The notes below the pieces were generated by a model, which saw only the letters and a list, made by a program, of their open reading frames with translations, was not told the origin of the DNA and made no database searches. A DNA stretch of 64,000 bases from Adineta ricciae (Eukaryota > Rotifera > Eurotatoria > Adinetida > Adinetidae), in assembly GCA_905250025.1 (NCBI GenBank), contig CAJNOJ010000247.1:62001-126000 (forward strand), written 5' to 3'. Shown piece by piece: positions 36,305 through 64,000 of this stretch. Positions within the stretch are counted from its first letter, which is position 1; the number at the start of each line of letters is the position of its first letter. A program made the position numbers and the translations under genes.

Positions 36305-36613
36305 CTACGCACAAGCTTGGATCAAAATGACTACTCGAGTAAAGTACGAATTTAGTACAATAAAATCTAATCTATTGTCACCATTGAAATCACCCGTGAT
36401 TAATCCAAAGGGTGAGCCAGGACTTCCGATTGAAAATATCAATGGCGATGAGAACACGCTTTCACCAATACCAAACCGAAGATCCAATTGATTTTTATAA
36501 TTAAGAACCACTGCAAGATCTGCATAGCCATCATTGTTAAAATCCACAGCAACTAATGAATTGGGCGCACTATACGCTCCGGTTGAATATGCGGTGTGTT
36601 GCGCAAAAGTGCC
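36305..36613 (-). CDS. FG-GAP protein family 2, C-terminal end, cut by gap
   Basis: Encodes the last repeats (SLVAVDFNNDGYADLAVVLN, GDFNGDNRLDFIVLNSYF) and the natural C-terminus ILIQACA, with the stop at 36305. This supplies the end missing from the copies at 50865 and 62445. Bases 36432-36613 are identical by eye to 62445-62626 but differ at several sites from the 50865 copy, so this piece most likely continues into 62445. Confidence 0.8.
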   Translation of the reverse strand, partial: GTFAQHTAYSTGAYSAPNSLVAVDFNNDGYADLAVVLNYKNQLDLRFGIGESVFSSPLIFSIGSPGSPFGLITGDFNGDNRLDFIVLNSYFTRVVILIQACA

Positions 36614-36614
36614 N
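36614..36614. other. Assembly junction (single n)
   Basis: Joins the 3' end of an FG-GAP family 2 gene to exon 1 of an FG-GAP family 1 gene. The chimeric open frame across it is artefactual. Confidence 0.95.
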
Positions 36615-50863: not shown

Positions 50864-50864
50864 N
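50864..50864. other. Assembly junction (single n)
   Basis: Unrelated spacer on the left; the interior of an FG-GAP family 2 gene on the right. Confidence 0.95.
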
Positions 50865-52192
50865 TATTGTCACCATTGAAATCGCCCGTGATTAATCCAA
50901 AGGGTGAGCCAGGACTTCCGATTGAAAATATCAATGGCGATGAGAACACGCTTTCACCAATACCAAACCGAAGATCCAATTGATTTTTATAATTAAGAAC
51001 CACTGCAAGATCTGCATAGCCATCATTGTTAAAATCCACAGGAACTAATGAATTGGGTGCACTATATGCTCCGGTTGAATATGCGGTGTGTTGCGCAAAA
51101 GTACCATTTTTCTGAATAAAAAGATTTACGATATCAGAATCCCCTAATGCAATGGCTAAATCCGGTTGATTATCACTGTTAAAATCAGCTACAGCGAGTG
51201 ACTTTTCGCTATTATAGGCGTTTGCCATTGTAATTGTCTGTAGTCGAAAATATCCGTAACCATTGTTAATTAAGATGTGCAGACGATTGTCGAACGTGCT
51301 AACGGTGGCGAGATCGAGATAATTATCGTTATTCAAATCAGCGACTACAAATGAGTCTTCATACGATACATCGTTAGAATAGAGGAATGATATACCGCTG
51401 AAAAATCCATTACCAAAATTAGACAATATACCCAGAAAGGCCCCATTAACAACAATGTCTAAATAAGTATCGCCATTGAAGTCAGCAACTGCAATTAAGG
51501 TTGGTTGATATATGGATGCAACTGAAATTGTCTGTTGTATCTGAAATATTCCCTCACCATTGCCAATCAAAATGATGATTGTACTAGAAGAATAAGCGGC
51601 AACAGCGAGATCTATTTGGTAATCGCTGTTAAAATCGCCACAGGCAATAGAAACAATGTAATAACTTGTGTCGATAATATGTATCGATGAGATTGAAAAT
51701 GTTTCATCATTGTTATTCAGAAATACGCTGAGATTGCCCGAATAAGCATCAACAAGAGCAATATCTAAATAACTATCACCATTAAAATCTCCCGTAGTAA
51801 TAGCATTGTGCGTTGAATTCGAGTTGGATGTGTACAGAGTTGATTGTTGAAATGTTAATTTGCAGGATGATTCTAACAAGAATGTAGAGCGAGGTTATCA
51901 CAATGCTGATGCCGTATAACACTAACCTGTTGAAGATGTTGTCGTCATCAATACTGTTGTACTGGTCGTTGTCTCCGCAATAGTTGTCAGTAAAACTTTA
52001 GTACAAATACAAATATTCAGAATATTTAAAATGAATTCGAGAAGAAACGATTGAATACCTGACGGTATTGTGTGAGCTGCATTTATACGTTTATTCAAAT
52101 AGATAGAAACAATTACCAATGCTGCTATTGAACCCATGAACAGAATTAATCCAAGAATGATATAACGACACATTACCGATGTGAATTGTCTC
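50865..52192 (-). CDS. FG-GAP repeat domain with TM and Thr-rich stalk (family 2), 3' end missing; probably the C-terminal part of the gene at 52193-56788
   Basis: Exons 52059..52192, 51927..51995 and 50865..51872 encode a TM segment (CRYIILGLILFMGSIAALVIVSIYL), a Thr/Ser-rich stalk in its own small exon (AETTTSTTVLMTTTSST) and six or more FG-GAP/VCBS-like repeats (GDFNGDSYLDIALVD, ADFNSDNQPDLAIAL, VDFNNDGYADLAVVL). The gap at 50864 removes the last 20 or so residues, which are seen at 36305-36613. If it is an independent gene, its first ATG (52209) overlaps the last codons of the upstream gene; an ATG at 52173 would avoid this. I prefer fusion through the intron 52193-52241, which is conserved at 63711-63759. 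Confidence 0.8.
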
Positions 52193-55100
52193 CTACAAGC
52201 AAACATCATTGAAAGATATGAGAAATATAAATAGACTGTACGGTGATGTTGAAGTTGAAGAAACTCCGTTTGGATCGAGATTGTGTACATGATTCTCTCC
52301 CAGTGTCGATTGAGGGATCACATCGACAGCGTTTTTCTGTTTTCGAGAATATCTATAGAGTTGATGGGAGAGAATGATTATTTTTGGACATAACCATTGT
52401 AAAGCCAGTGTTAAACCACCGATATAGCCGATTAAAACAGTGACAGTATAAAGCCAGTCGAATCTCTGTCGATATGTATATGAACAAGAACTAGGTGAAC
52501 ATTGTTGAAAATATACAGAATAGTTTATGGATGTTATCCACTTCTCTATGAAGACATTTGTGACTAAATCTAGAACAGTTGAATCCATTGAATATTGGCT
52601 ATTGTTTGTGGAGAGGATTGAGATTTTAACCGTGCTATCGCTATTATTTGTATACTGCAGAATAAGATCCAGACATGATGAATTATAGAAGCATTCCAGG
52701 GTTGACGACAGAAACGCTTCACTAGGCGTACAGCCTATTTTCAAACCTTTGATTGGTACGATTTTCAATGAATCCGGTGCAACGAATCCAGCTTGAACAG
52801 TACAGTTCATGTGCAATGCACAGGAACATTCATCAGCATAGACTATTGATTGAGTAATGGCTGGAGAATAAGATTCATTCACCCAAGGATCAATATACTC
52901 AAAATTTGTTCCATAAGATGATATAATAGCATTGCCGTAATTGACTGCCCGAAGAAGGGACAGACGAGTTACAAAGGAATTGGGAGCGTTTAATTGACTA
53001 CTGTTGACAAGCGTATGGATGGATGTGTCAAGTATACTTGCTGGTATGAGTTGATCGGTTAGAAAAAATGATTCAAGAAACTGAGTGATATAGCTATTCA
53101 CGGATTGCATTGCCTCAGAACACAATCCTGATAGAAGTTGCAAATGCGAGGATAGAAAACGACGATAATCTCGAGTGTCATAGACGAATAAATCTGGAGC
53201 CAAACTTGACGTAATGTTCATGTACCATCCCTCGGAAACGAAGAGACTCGAGCATATCTAAAACAGATACATTGCGTGGTATAAACCAAAATGATAATAA
53301 TCTAGTCTCTTACTGGATGAAAAATAGGTTGAATTTGAACGAAGTTATTGTATTTCGATGCGACTGACGAGCAACGGCATTGCAGAGTATCACCGTGTTC
53401 GAGTAGAAGACTTTTGTAGACATCGATATCTGGTCTATCAATTGTTATTTTTATTGTTCGTAATTGCAGAACATAGTAAAATGCCAAGACGCCAGAAGTG
53501 ACGATCAGCAGAACGATGTAAAGTCTCGTTGATAATTGCCCAAAATACCTCGCTTTTCTGTCAGTGATACGTCCACCAAAAATTCGTCTTGGGAAAAAAT
53601 TTAGATTTATCAACGTAGATCCTATCAGTCTAATTAGTCTAGCTGTGATCGTTTTCACTTGACTGAACAGTTTCGGTGAATCTATATGATAGGGAATACT
53701 CAACGGTTCATCTGTTATGGCGAATATGGATATGCAAACATTGATTACCTCGAGATGTTAGCTGTCTTTGTGACGTGTTTGATGGTTGTTTGCTCTTCAA
53801 CAAATTGATGATCAACCTGATTAGTGATGGCGTAACTAATCGTAGAATAACAATAATACCGCCGATTGTTGCTAGCATTCTTATCATTATGTCGATTAAG
53901 CTACTCCTACGCACTTCTTGAGAGTAAATGCATCTGCTTGGTGCACATTCCTTATAATAATCTTCGAATGAAAATGTTGGGTTCCACTCTTCGATCATTA
54001 ATTCTTTGATTATCAGTGAAAGTGAGGTATTGGGAGGAAATCGACTGGATGTTGAATTATATATAAGAAGACTAGCATCGATATACCGAAGACCTACGTT
54101 AATGACGTCCACTGTGGCGTTTATGTACTTGTACAGAATAGACACGCACGAATGAGAATAGTAACATTCTAGCGTTGACAGCAGTACAGAATTCAAAGTA
54201 AAGCAACTAGTGATCATTCCTACAGCTTCAGAAAAGCCCGGAACATTGTATAGAGTAGTTGTATTTATAGGATCACGAACTGGAGTTTGGCAGCGAGGAT
54301 CTGTAGCGCAGATACACACTACTTGCTGCGTTTCGATGTTCCTTGGACCAGTAAAGTTGAATCCAAGCTAAATCAAAGATATTTAATTCAACCGTAACTC
54401 TCATCATGCCACTATACCTTGGAAATTTCTCTGTGATTGCTTTCATCGTGCGTTGCCAAATCGACTAGATCAGCATTGTTACCCATTGTGTAAGGTTGAT
54501 CAGCTTGTGTGAACAGCTGAATAATCCTGAGAAGAAGATAAAAGTCATCACCGAACGACTGAGTGTATTCGTGCACAATTATATCTAATTGAGTATTAAA
54601 AATATCTTCACTGGTGACATTCAGTGTGACGAAGGTTTGAATACCAAATCGATGAACAGCATCTGTGACAGTTTTATTTGCCAGTTGGCATAAAGTTGAC
54701 AGCAAACGGAAATGTTGACCTGTGAAACCATTCCAAGCGAAGAGACGGTATCCAAAATAGAGTACATTAGTAGTATATGACAATAATGGAATCCACGTCT
54801 CACTAACAAAATCGCTTGTACACAACGAATGAAGTCTTGGCGCCCAAGCGACGAATGTTTGATATGGTACAACAGTGTTTGAACAAGAGCATTTCAGGGA
54901 ATTGGAATGTGATTGTTGTAGTCTTCTGTATTCTCTTAACAAAGGTTTCAATACAGGTATATCTACTATCTGTACATCGATAGATGTGTGTACCAGAAGC
55001 ACACACACGGCACCTTGAATGAGATACAGTGATATAACTATGAGTAAAACCAACAAGATATAGATAATCATACTCGCAAGTAAAATCAAGTAAATCCGCG

Positions 55101-56788
55101 TGATCATGCGCTGTAGTTTGACATCTCCTTCGGTTCGTCTACTGATTGATTTAAACAAGTTGAGTCGTCCTAACTTGTCCATGCATTTCTTTATAGCCAT
55201 CAATTGATTTTCTAGAAATAGAGTTCGTTTGAATTTAGAGTATATTCTTTTCTTATATAGTTTTCGAGGATTACTTAGATTGCGATTGTGATTGGTCGAA
55301 CTGAGCTTGAGCTTTAGCAAAAGGAAAACTAAGTAAGGTGTGATTGAGCGAAGCAAAATGGTGACACCTCCATAGAGGGCAAGTAAGAGAGTACCAGTGT
55401 ATAAAACATTCATGTGGCTGATAATCGAATACGTACATGTTTTTGGAGCGCATGAAGTAAAGTATACAGTATAGTTGATCACAGATGACCAATTTGCTAC
55501 GAATAATTCAGATAAAATATCTCCGACAGGTATCTGTTTCCGTGTTGAAGATGGCAGACCATCAGACCAAGAAATATTTGTCTAAATCATGACGAGAATT
55601 GATTTTTTAAACAATTATTCAAATACTCATACCTGATTAAGATTTGGAAAATAACTGGGAAAGTTTTTCAGACAGCTGACGCTATATAGGCATTCAAGTG
55701 TACTGACAAGTAAACCATCAAGTGGAGTACATCCAGCAAAGAATCCATCTACTGTTGCATTAGTACTTGGACTGAAAGAGGGTGGATTGATTGGCCATGT
55801 AGAATGTTTTATTGCACTCTCATATTGTGGTAATGAATAAAAACCGGCCGGTACTGTTGATCTTACTAGATCGCACGTTTGACCGATATTGTTGGCTGTG
55901 CGACTGCTATTTTCGTTGAATGCACGGGTAGATGATGGTACTATGCGAGAAACTTGCCCATTGATTTTACTCACTGAAATATAGGCATTTGTATTAAGAG
56001 CAGAAACGACAAAGTTTGATTGTGTTGTTATTTGTAAGAGACTAACGATAATACCTTTTTGAAGGAAAATACTGTTTTTAATTAGATCAATAGTGGCCAC
56101 TATTTGAAACTGAACTTGGTCTTCTGGAAACAGTTCAGAAGTCACAAATTGTTCATTTTCCACGTCAACGAGAGATTGAAAAACTGTTTCTTGAGAGATG
56201 GAACAAAATGCAGCGAGAAGTTCAAACTACAATAGAAATTTACGCTCATTTATTCTCAAGCGCATTGTCTTACTTGAGATTTCGCAGTTGTTCGAAAATC
56301 CATCACTAGCAATGAGCTGGCATAGGACAGATAAAGCGCTTGAATCCACTCTTTGCTCACATAAGTACTCGAACACACCGGGTGAAAGGAGATCATGTGT
56401 GATACAAATTTTCCATACGGCATAGCAATAGTTGAACATGGGCATGACAGTGTATCGGCATGATCGCGATAGAGCTCATTGAAAAACACTGGTGTTATGT
56501 CTGAAACGCTGATCGATTGATTTTGTGGACTAACGACGGCAACAAACGTTAGGATGTACAGGGTAACTAAACTTTCATATACAAATGAATCATTTTATGA
56601 ATGCTAAACTTACTGATAAGAAGAGGAATATATAATCGAGTAGAATATAGTTGATGTTTCAGAGTAACTGCGGGATCGACTGGTTCGTCACTGTCATCAT
56701 TATCGTTATAATCATCTTCGTCAGGTAAGAAGATATTGTAATCATAGACATGCTCAAGTAACCAAATGAATAAATTCTTGATATTCAT
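52193..56788 (-). CDS. Triple-unit membrane protein: three tandem two-TM, Cys-rich ectodomain units
   Basis: Seven exons: 56614..56788, 56274..56566, 55633..56226, 54418..55581, 53749..54367, 53314..53711, 52193..53257. They give 1,435 residues with every phase in register. Each unit has a TM segment (about 52-71, 515-552, 1010-1031), a roughly 350-residue ectodomain and a second TM (about 411-443, 898-932, 1350-1378). Repeated cysteine motifs are LSCPCS/LKCSCS/LQCRCS, HPVCSS/HSLCTS/HPICSS, STLECLYSVSC/STLECYYSHSC/STLECFYNSSC, and CAPKTCTYS/CAPSRCIYS/CSPSSCSYT just before the second TM. Units 1 and 2 lie in one uninterrupted exon; units 2 and 3 join across a 37-base intron. Both ends are predicted cytosolic. 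I know no named family; topology alone recalls two-TM channel subunits. The last exon may instead be 52242..53257, splicing into the FG-GAP exons. Confidence 0.8.
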
Positions 56789-57708: not shown

Positions 57709-59212
57709 TCAAATGTTGCCCGAAGCGAGTTCCTGCAAAAACTCTGGAGTGAGATCGACAAGTCCACAATCATTTAGATCACGAGAAATGCCATTGTAAT
57801 TTGTAGTATCGGGATACCGATACGAGCCTAAACATTCAGGACCATTGTAAGATAAGATATATTCGACCGGACAGATATAATAATCGCGACTAAAATTAGC
57901 AGTTTCATGTTTAAACATGGTTATCAACGCAGGAATAGATGCGTCAGAACTAGTGCCCAGCCGAAATCGTGTGTACTTTTCTTTGCTGAAGGCAATCCCA
58001 CGATTTAGCTTTACTATTATTGTACACCTTACAGCAGTTCCATTGTGCATTTGAGATTGTGAATCTCCATTATAAGTGTGGCAAGCAAAGCTTTGAGTGG
58101 CATAATAAGTTGCCTCTCCCCACGTACAGAGTCCTTTCAAAATCCGTGCAAAATAATTTGACAGAGACTTGCATTGACCATTTCGACAATTGGATGAAGT
58201 TCCATGCCATCCGATACATTCTTGCGTCGCATATTTCGGATTTGACCGAACGAATTGTTGGTATCTTGATTCTAAGGATGCATGGTGGATTTTATAAATT
58301 TCTTCTACTCGTATTTTTTGTCGATACTCGTTTAGCCAACCGTTTATAAACTCTCTTTCTACCGTTCCAAATTCTGCACTTGTTCTTGACAGCAGTTGTG
58401 TCAATAGAGTATCTTAAATGAGATATTTAACGATAAAAAATAAGATCTTTAAAGATTATCGTGAACACACTCAAACTGCTTGAACAAAATGACTGTTCAG
58501 CTAGAAGATGTTTTAATTCAGCAAATGTTGGTCGATCTTTTGGCGATTTAGCCCACATTTTACAAATAACTGACCAGCAATCATCACTACAGTTAGATGG
58601 CTTTGGCGATATTTCACCATTTAGAACACGTCGAACAACTTCACCATCATTACTTATTTTCGGCCAGGGGATTATACCTCGATTATAAGCCTCCTACATC
58701 AAGATTCCCATTGAATAAACATCCGATTTCTCTGTGTAATCATCAGATGTTACATTTTTTGAAAGTATTTCTGGTGCAACAAAACGTACAGAAAACATTG
58801 AGAGTTGTTTTTGCCGCACCGAGTGCTAATGCATACAGTGAACTAGCTAAGAGCATAATCGAATTGTTTTCATAGACAAGACCATATGTTCTAGCAATGT
58901 GTGCATGTCGACTCAGATCAACCCAAAAAGAAGCTTGTTTTCGTGCACCATCAATTTTCAAAAGAATGACATCTGGTCGACCTGCTCTTCGTTTAACGTC
59001 AAACATTAAGAGTATACTGGTACGTTTTGTTTTTCACTGAATTTTCGAATTGATCGATCACTTTTTTCATCGCATGATTTGGATATAAGCGTTCTAATGA
59101 TAACGGTTGATCAGTGAGTGGATTTCGCCCATTCTACAATTGCTTCTCTCTCATAGGTGTGGCCATCTTCGGCCACAACGGGGTCCCGGAATAATTCGAG
59201 AATAATTGGACA
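57709..59212 (-). pseudogene. U-box / protein kinase / PARP-like fusion, decayed
   Basis: Read from 59212 down. A U-box ([28 protein letters not shown]) has a frameshift before [21 protein letters not shown] kinase N-lobe (59006 on, LLKIDGARKQASFWVDLSRH) loses the catalytic loop, and the C-lobe (RFVAPEILSKN, KSDVYSMGILM) meets TAG where EAYNRGIIPWP should follow Trp, with CWSVICKMWAKSPKDRPTF after it. Next is a PARP-type catalytic domain (57709-58404, ECIGWHGTSSNC, GEATYYATQSF) that is still open for 231 codons. The HGT and YYA residues of the NAD site remain. As a whole it cannot be functional, but the PARP exon alone is intact. Confidence 0.7.
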
Positions 59213-62444: not shown

Positions 62445-63727
62445 GAAAATATCAATGGCGATGAGAACACGCTTTCACCAATACCAAACCGAAGATCCAA
62501 TTGATTTTTATAATTAAGAACCACTGCAAGATCTGCATAGCCATCATTGTTAAAATCCACAGCAACTAATGAATTGGGCGCACTATACGCTCCGGTTGAA
62601 TATGCGGTGTGTTGCGCAAAAGTGCCATTCTTCTGAATAAAAAGATTCACGATATTAGAATCCTTTATTGCAATGGCTAAATCCGGTTGATTATCACTGT
62701 TAAAATCAGCTACAGCGAGTGACTTGTCGCTACTATAGGCGTTTGCCATTGTAATTGTCTGTAGTCGAAAATATCCGTAGCCATTGTTAATCAAGATGTG
62801 CAGACGATTGTCGAACTCGCCAACGATGACGAGATCAAGATAATTATCGTTATTCAAATCAGCGACTACAAATGAGTCTTCATACGATACATCGTTAGAA
62901 TAGAGGAATGATACATCGCTGAAAAATCCATTACCAAAACCAGACAATATACCCAGAAAGTCCCCATTGACAACAATGTCTAAATAAGTATCGCCATTGA
63001 AGTCAGCAACTACAATTGAGGTTGGTTCAGAGATGGATGCAACTGAAATTGTCTGTTGTATCTGAAATATTCCCTCACCATTGCCAATCAAAATGATGAT
63101 TGTACTAAAAGAACGAACGGCAACAGCGAGATCTATTCGGTAATCGCTGTTAAAATCTCCAGAAGCAATAGAAACAATGTAATCACTTGTGTTGATAATA
63201 TGTATCGATGATATTGAAAATGTTTCATCATTGTTATTCAGAAATACGCTGAGATTACCCGAATAAGCATCAACAAGAGCAATATCTAGATAACTATCAC
63301 CATTAAAATCTCCCGTAGTAATAGCATTGTGCGTTGAATTCGAGTTGGATGTGTACAGAGTTGATTGTTGAAATGTTAATTTGCAGGATGATTCTAACAA
63401 GAATGTAGAGTGAGGTCATGAGAATGCTGATGCCGTATCACACTAACCTGTTGAAGATATTGTCGTCATCAATACTGTCGTACTGGTCGTTGTCTCAATA
63501 GTTGTCAGTAAAACTTAAGTACAAATACAAATATTCAGAATATTGTAAATGAATTCGAGAGGACATGATTGAATACCTGACGGTGTTGTGTGAAGCGTAT
63601 TTATACGTTCATTCAAATAGATAGAAACAATTACCAGTGCTGCTATTGAACCCATGAACAGAATTAATCCAAGAATGATATAACGACACATGGTCGATGT
63701 GAATTGTCGCCTACAAGCAAACATCAT
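62445..63727 (-). CDS. FG-GAP family 2 protein with TM and Thr-rich stalk, second copy, 3' end at gap
   Basis: Exons 63577..63727 (or 63577..63710 if fused upstream), 63448..63513 and 62445..63393, homologous exon for exon to 50865-52209. The middle exon is 3 bases shorter, keeping frame. The TM segment, Thr stalk and FG-GAP repeats are intact, with scattered substitutions. Its missing C-terminus is almost certainly 36305-36613, given the identical overlap. Confidence 0.8.
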
Positions 63728-64000
63728 TGAAATATATGAGAAATATAAATAGACTGTACGGTGATGTTGAAGTTGAAGAAACTCCGCTTAGATCGAGATT
63801 GTGTATATGGTTTTCTCCCAATGTCAATTGAGGGATCACATGGACAGTGTTTTTCTGTTTTCGAGAATATCTATAGAGTTGATTGGAGAGAATGATCATT
63901 TTTGGACATAACCATTGTAAAGTCAGTGTTAAACCACCGATATAGCCGATTAAAACAGTGACAGTATAAAGCCAGTCGAATCTCTGTTGATATGTATATG
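63711..64000 (-). CDS. Triple-unit membrane protein, second copy, C-terminal end
   Basis: The frame is open from the window edge to the stop at 63711 and homologous to 52193-52482. It covers the end of the third unit (TVTVLIGYIGG-type TM by homology) and the cytosolic tail LYRYSRKQKN. The 49-base intron candidate (donor GTACAG, acceptor GCTTGTAG) is preserved at 63711-63759. Confidence 0.75.
   Translation of the reverse strand, partial: YTYQQRFDWLYTVTVLIGYIGGLTLTLQWLCPKMIILSNQLYRYSRKQKNTVHVIPQLTLGENHIHNLDLSGVSSTSTSPYSLFIFLIYFNDVCL

Follow-up and report, generated by a model that had tools for sequence, protein, structure and literature searches.

DEG/ENaC channels and P2X receptors both carry ectodomains with beta-rich folds. 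The selectivity motif of DEG/ENaC channels is a GxS sequence in the second transmembrane segment (TM2), and P2X receptors are trimers of separate subunits. In the four-domain Na+ and Ca2+ channels and in K2P channels, homologous membrane units are naturally concatenated through cytosolic linkers. For the bdelloid rotifer Adineta vaga, one report names FG-GAP proteins and seven-TM receptors among the lineage-specific expansions (PMC3846280).

Here, we analyzed 64,000 nucleotides of the related bdelloid Adineta ricciae (G000:C247:62001-126000; hereafter, the window). The minus strand of the window carries a gene for three concatenated two-TM, Cys-rich units followed by an FG-GAP propeller. A search of open-access literature, judged by titles and abstract openings, yielded no paper on the unit.

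Corrected gene model

With corrected splicing, the gene has 11 exons and encodes at least 1,793 amino acids, counted as far as the lone N at 50864, where the gene range probably ends at an assembly break (Table 1). The predicted chain runs through three repeats of TM, Cys-rich ectodomain, and TM to a seventh TM (TM7), a Thr-rich stalk, and an FG-GAP propeller. Its phases are consistent throughout, while both its splice sites and its topology are predictions. The initial annotation had proposed seven exons and a frame of 1,435 residues. This frame was reproduced exactly, and its stop at 52193 is reached by reading through the donor of exon 8. The gene itself is real, but two splice choices behind the 1,435-residue frame look wrong, as one intron (55073-55014) was overlooked and the intron between units 2 and 3 was drawn too short.

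TABLE 1 Features of the locus, in window positions
Feature	Position	Strand	Remark
Exon 1: start Met, acidic N terminus, first half of unit 1 TM1	56614..56788	-	
Exon 2: second half of unit 1 TM1, CxC and third Cys	56274..56566	-	
Exon 3: ectodomain of unit 1	55633..56226	-	
Exon 4: end of unit 1 with TM2, basic linker, first half of unit 2 TM1	55074..55581	-	
Intron, 60 nt, in frame, stop-free	55014..55073	-	Same-site junction in paralogs; 61 nt in near copy
Exon 5: second half of unit 2 TM1, ectodomain	54418..55013	-	
Exon 6: end of unit 2 ectodomain, TM2, start of linker	53749..54367	-	
Linker intron (units 2-3), 67 nt	53682..53748	-	1,435-residue frame needs 37 nt
Exon 7: end of linker, unit 3 TM1 (no TM1 intron)	53314..53681	-	
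Exon 8: unit 3 ectodomain, TM2, cytosolic tail	52242..53257	-	
Exon 9: seventh TM	52059..52192	-	Similar TM frame in L036-L040
Exon 10: Thr-rich stalk	51927..51995	-	
Exon 11: FG-GAP beta-propeller, cut by N at 50864	50865..51872	-	PF13517 E 1.6e-42
Start of copy 2 (near copy, L031)	62445..64000	-	94.6% DNA identity here; extends to about C247:130.1 kb
Third FG-GAP fragment	36305..36613	-	FG-GAP C terminus and stop; 182 bp identical to low end of copy 2

The overlooked intron (GTATGAT...CTCATTCAAG) splits the former exon 55581-54418 inside unit 2 TM1. Because its 60 nt are in frame and free of stops, it looked exonic and added a hydrophobic stretch to unit 2. TM1 sites were compared among the window, its near copy (L031), and other loci, leaving out the overlapping L001-L003, L019, L035, and L036 and reporting a site only if it had both a TR-type motif and usable spacing. 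All 20 such sites in units 1 and 2 of the intron-bearing subfamily, the type found in the window, have a GT-AG junction 31 nt after the TR codons, in phase 1. This junction scores best at 17 of the 20 sites and second at the other three, and it yields a TR-to-CxC spacing of 51 residues. Third units with a TR motif reach the same 51 residues with no intron (6/6), and the spacing is 49 to 52 residues, again without an intron, in 14 TR-bearing units of a second subfamily. Units 1 and 2 have the TM1 intron in common, and unit 3 is without it. In the near copy, the unit 2 intron stretch measures 61 nt, which would cause a frameshift if exonic. The proposal that units 1 and 2 occupy a single uninterrupted exon finds no support in these junctions. 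What survives of it is that unit 1 TM2, the linker, and half of unit 2 TM1 lie within one exon (55581-55074).

In L010 and L011, the unit 2 TM1 intron is 66 nt long, likewise open in frame and a multiple of three. Since these stretches and the 60-nt stretch of the window are open, readthrough is possible at 3 of the 20 sites, and a retained-intron form could exist in which TM1 of unit 2 would gain 20 to 22 residues.

The second correction places the intron between units 2 and 3 at 53748-53682 (67 nt). In paralog L007, coding sequence picks up again at the matching residues, and the near copy has a 1-nt indel in the segment that the 37-nt intron would render coding.

Units, topology, and linkers

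The three units are 22 to 30% identical, with blastp E values among them of 6e-46 to 9e-31. Together with the phase-consistent minus strand, these matches confirm the three tandem homologous TM-ectodomain-TM units of the initial annotation, and their concatenation in one chain is supported. The ectodomains are acidic, span 319 to 348 residues, and contain 10 to 12 Cys and 7 or 8 N-glycosylation sequons (7, 7, and 8 in units 1 to 3). By hydropathy only, the chain has seven hydrophobic segments. The linkers have K+R to D+E counts of 21/4 and 17/2, and of 7/3 before TM7. Being basic, they are probably cytosolic, in line with the earlier placement. The N terminus is acidic (K+R, 3; D+E, 12), which on its own is contrary to the positive-inside rule.

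The TM2 consensus of 59 units reads S/G-x-x-G-G-L-x-x-x-L-R-x-x-x-P, in which no pore-like motif stands out. The sole conserved TM charge comes from an Arg at the end of TM2 facing the cytosol, present in 46 of the 59 units. A fold model of a unit 3 piece, built from window sequences only, is mostly helical with a mean pLDDT of 41. A mostly helical ectodomain would not resemble those of DEG/ENaC or P2X proteins, although at this pLDDT the model carries little weight.

TM7, stalk, and FG-GAP head

Exon 11 matches PF13517 in seven stretches and PF01839 in five, and its PF13517 score of 144.4 bits exceeds the curated cut-off of 26.9. We compared 80 of the 119 unit 3 places in the genome, leaving out weaker second-subfamily matches and short second pieces, with 60 FG-GAP places that were hand-picked among the matches listed (171 in all), mostly one per contig. 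At 15 of these 80 places, the same strand carries FG-GAP less than 2.5 kb downstream. None of the 80 has it within 2.5 kb in the control orientations, upstream (both strands) or downstream on the opposite strand; the upstream part of this control is weak, because that space is filled by units 1 and 2. Five of the 65 places without FG-GAP were examined, chosen partly for long frames, and three of them (L068-L070) proved to contain both TM7-like frames and FG-GAP frames (PF13517 E 8e-32 to 4e-35).

In L037, TM2 of unit 3 and TM7 share one open frame. Its spacing from CPK to TM7 is 59 residues, equal to that of the spliced form in the window, so that a hidden intron has no room there. The frame of its close relative L038 stays open until it ends inside TM7, and L039 and L040 have TM7-like frames and Thr-rich frames ahead of FG-GAP. 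The fusion of FG-GAP through TM7 and a Thr stalk, first put forward as a splicing option, is supported as a recurrent arrangement in paralogs.

At the two other places examined, L071 and L072, a TM7-like segment after the third unit is followed by frames with no visible FG-GAP, and two pieces of L071 matched no Pfam family at E 0.01. This hints at exchangeable heads. Separately, an hhalign match between the unit and FG-GAP was rejected as an artefact. It arose because the longest frame had been taken from FG-GAP loci whose flanks contain unit exons; once frames were chosen by the FG-GAP motif, the match was gone.

Paralog family and unit number

Searches of the 130.5-Mb assembly (1,033 contigs) returned 121 matches to the exon spanning units 1 and 2, 119 to the unit 3 exon, and 108 to a second-subfamily unit, which are lower bounds from overlapping sets. 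In the intron-bearing subfamily, three units occur in order at 24 of 26 loci, a fraction biased by the choice of loci, whose query covered both unit 1 and unit 2 and could not return singles. Of the 24, 22 have their units within the examined stretch, whose end often cuts the third unit so that a fourth may lie beyond, and two (C530 and C854) were completed by the unit 3 search. Extra units were seen in C222 (G000:C222:150155-155979) and C121 (C121:248127-253332), as gene variants or assembly errors.

In a 59-unit tree, the intron-type units 1 (n = 23) and units 2 (n = 26) fall into one clade per position, both with a support of 1.0, the units of C222 and C121 having been given positions by sequence and not by cluster order. 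Both clades return with a support of 1.0 in a second tree of 41 units, in which the wider position 1 clade has a support of just 0.40 and C720, C422, and C350 contribute scattered units. The position clades indicate that the triplication of the window's type predates its paralog expansion.

Clustering of the 108 second-subfamily matches (gap, <1 kb) gave 60 clusters, namely, 15 triple, 15 double, 29 single, and one of four pieces, although small clusters may be incomplete, as scoring covered 107 of 1,366 candidates and some neighbours (in C553 and C583) fall slightly outside the 1-kb limit. The four-piece cluster consists of three units, one of them split, and no cluster among the 60 has four or more whole units. 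Four of the 29 single-match clusters were examined, revealing two single units (L073 and L076) and two doubles (L074 and L075). L073 is a single-unit gene of 419 amino acids from Met to stop. The L076 unit has weak unit fragments nearby on the opposite strand, and the stretch examined for L074 ends about 0.6 kb past its second unit. With triples at many loci, the genome thus contains the single, double, and triple forms that the initial annotation had proposed to look for. A unit number fixed at three is refuted for the second subfamily by the two singles and two doubles, and the doubles together with the extra units in C222 and C121 show that three is no absolute rule.

In the second subfamily, C422 (1,314 amino acids) and C720 (1,330 amino acids) each have a triple in a single frame. 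The C422 frame was rejected as splice-free proof, since both of its linkers contain good in-frame GT-AG pairs. In C720, the linker between units 1 and 2 has no in-frame GT-AG pair with a GTA donor, and the linker between units 2 and 3 has two weak ones. The three units of C147, joined by short introns read by eye, are mutually closest relatives (support, 0.97; within-gene identity, 0.41 to 0.64), suggesting a separate triplication or gene conversion. Scans of GTDB with unit 2 of L033 and of IMG/VR with exon 8 of the window, which reach close relatives only, returned no relative.

Second copy, selection, and assembly

From about codon 37 to the FG-GAP region, copy 2 read with corrected introns is free of frameshifts; a premature stop interrupts it once, at codon 603, and a single codon is gapped. 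This copy is possibly in decay. In the comparison of both C247 copies, dN/dS equals 0.29, 0.42, and 0.31 for units 1 to 3 and 0.59 for FG-GAP, and four other comparisons gave 0.21 to 0.47. All values are below 1 and that of the FG-GAP head is the highest, as simple counts without confidence limits.

In the partial copy at 36305-36613, FG-GAP runs 22 residues past the point of the N at 50864 and then reaches a stop. Window positions 36432-36613 and 62445-62626 are identical over 182 bp, and each stretch abuts a single N (at 36614 and 62444, respectively) from the outside. This identity, which underlies the probable assembly break at the low end of the gene range, points to overlapping contig ends placed 26 kb apart. 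It makes the scaffold order between them doubtful and means that the two copies of the gene may be alleles. Next to the gene, the minus strand at 57709-58693 may encode a kinase-PARP fusion, in which a kinase C-lobe (PF07714 E 4.7e-8) is followed immediately by a stretch resembling a PARP catalytic domain (PF00644 E 2.8e-4, below the cut-off).

Interpretation and comparison with known systems

We tentatively interpret the gene as a member of a lineage-expanded family of seven-TM surface receptors or adhesion proteins with an orphan membrane core, an explanation that, taken as a whole, falls a little short of evenly balanced. Its parts differ in strength. The architecture and family of the three-unit, propeller-bearing protein are very probable, a receptor or adhesion role is slightly more doubtful than not, and a threefold core is more doubtful again. 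At the level of the DNA, the unit order, its recurrence in paralogs, and dN/dS values below 1 for the three units and the propeller are established, and the splicing and topology in the explanation built on them are predicted.

Under this explanation, three homologous two-TM, Cys-rich units with many sequons would be concatenated through short basic cytosolic linkers, and the seventh TM would put the C-terminal FG-GAP propeller outside the cell on its Thr-rich stalk. Some paralogs perhaps carry another C-terminal region outside instead of FG-GAP. The units could pack around one axis as a pseudo-threefold membrane core, the propeller could serve as a ligand-binding or adhesive head, and the heads of such a receptor or adhesion protein may have diversified through gene duplication. 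The usual unit number in one subfamily suggests the pseudo-threefold core, as does a second route to three that the other subfamily probably took, whereas doubles and loci with extra units speak against a strict threefold rule. The tethered trimer envisaged initially is plausible and stays putative, given the existence of doubles and the low quality of the sole fold model (pLDDT 41).

The same topology of two TMs, a large Cys-rich ectodomain, and cytosolic ends would also suit a naturally tethered trimeric channel of the DEG/ENaC or P2X type, with the units as subunits and one pore gated by the propeller or the ectodomains. The second subfamily, with its lack of clusters of four or more whole units and its mutually closest C147 units suggesting a second route to three, is in keeping with such a channel. 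However, the Pfam scan found no credible match for the units, including PF00858 and PF00864, and genome searches with these two families to E 10 gave 95 and 62 matches, respectively, none at the listed unit places; the animal DEG/ENaC and P2X genes of this genome lie elsewhere. A 17-row unit profile searched against the PDB to E 10 found only Cas9 at E 5.7, in contrast to a single DEG/ENaC sequence from the same genome, which as a positive control found ENaC/ASIC at E 3e-22. In hhalign, run with shallow profiles and without a positive control, the unit aligned to DEG/ENaC, the DEG/ENaC C terminus, and P2X no better than reversed or shuffled sequences did. The relation to DEG/ENaC and P2X profiles that had been suggested for checking thus found no match in any of these searches. 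In addition, the 59-unit TM2 consensus lacks a GxS-type filter. We consider a channel of this kind improbable.

Alternatively, independent two-TM modules may be repeated for avidity or length, like beads on a string with no symmetric core. This reading, which we judge rather unlikely, accommodates the singles and doubles, the within-gene unit identity of only 22 to 30%, and the extra units in C222 and C121, but it sits less easily with three units at 24 of 26 intron-type loci and with a second subfamily in which no cluster exceeds three whole units. It is highly improbable that separate genes, either the units or the triple and FG-GAP, were run together by the gene model or the assembly. A scaffold error is likely in the window and the splice sites are predictions, yet the same order recurs on many contigs, the junction of units 1 and 2 lies inside one exon, unit 3 and TM7 share a frame in L037, and the compared part of copy 2 has no frameshift under the corrected introns.

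Returning to the orphan membrane core of the preferred interpretation, a more specific history, in our view rather unlikely as a whole, would have an orphan two-TM family welded at least twice, in animals of this lineage, into single-chain pseudo-trimers, as a new, naturally tethered trimeric channel or receptor core, with one branch gaining an external propeller and radiating into many paralogs. Single, double, and triple forms in one genome mean that gene architecture can probe oligomeric state, and if the singles assemble as trimers, the triples would be natural concatemers. As the unit is without a credible relative in Pfam or the PDB, it may represent a new membrane fold, within a family of surface proteins that has expanded heavily.

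Among described systems, DEG/ENaC channels resemble the unit in its two TMs, Cys-rich ectodomain, and cytosolic ends, as judged by hydropathy, charge, and sequons only; they differ in that no sequence relation is detectable and that three units here share one chain. P2X receptors likewise share the two-TM topology and have no detectable sequence relation. The FG-GAP propeller is of the integrin-alpha type by its exon 11 matches to PF13517 and PF01839. Unlike in integrin alpha, it is linked to three two-TM units by way of TM7 and a Thr stalk, and Pfam found no other integrin domains in the pieces scanned. The likeness to the four-domain Na+ and Ca2+ channels and K2P channels, compared through Pfam and the PDB only, lies in the linking of homologous membrane units within one chain, of which the protein described here has three.
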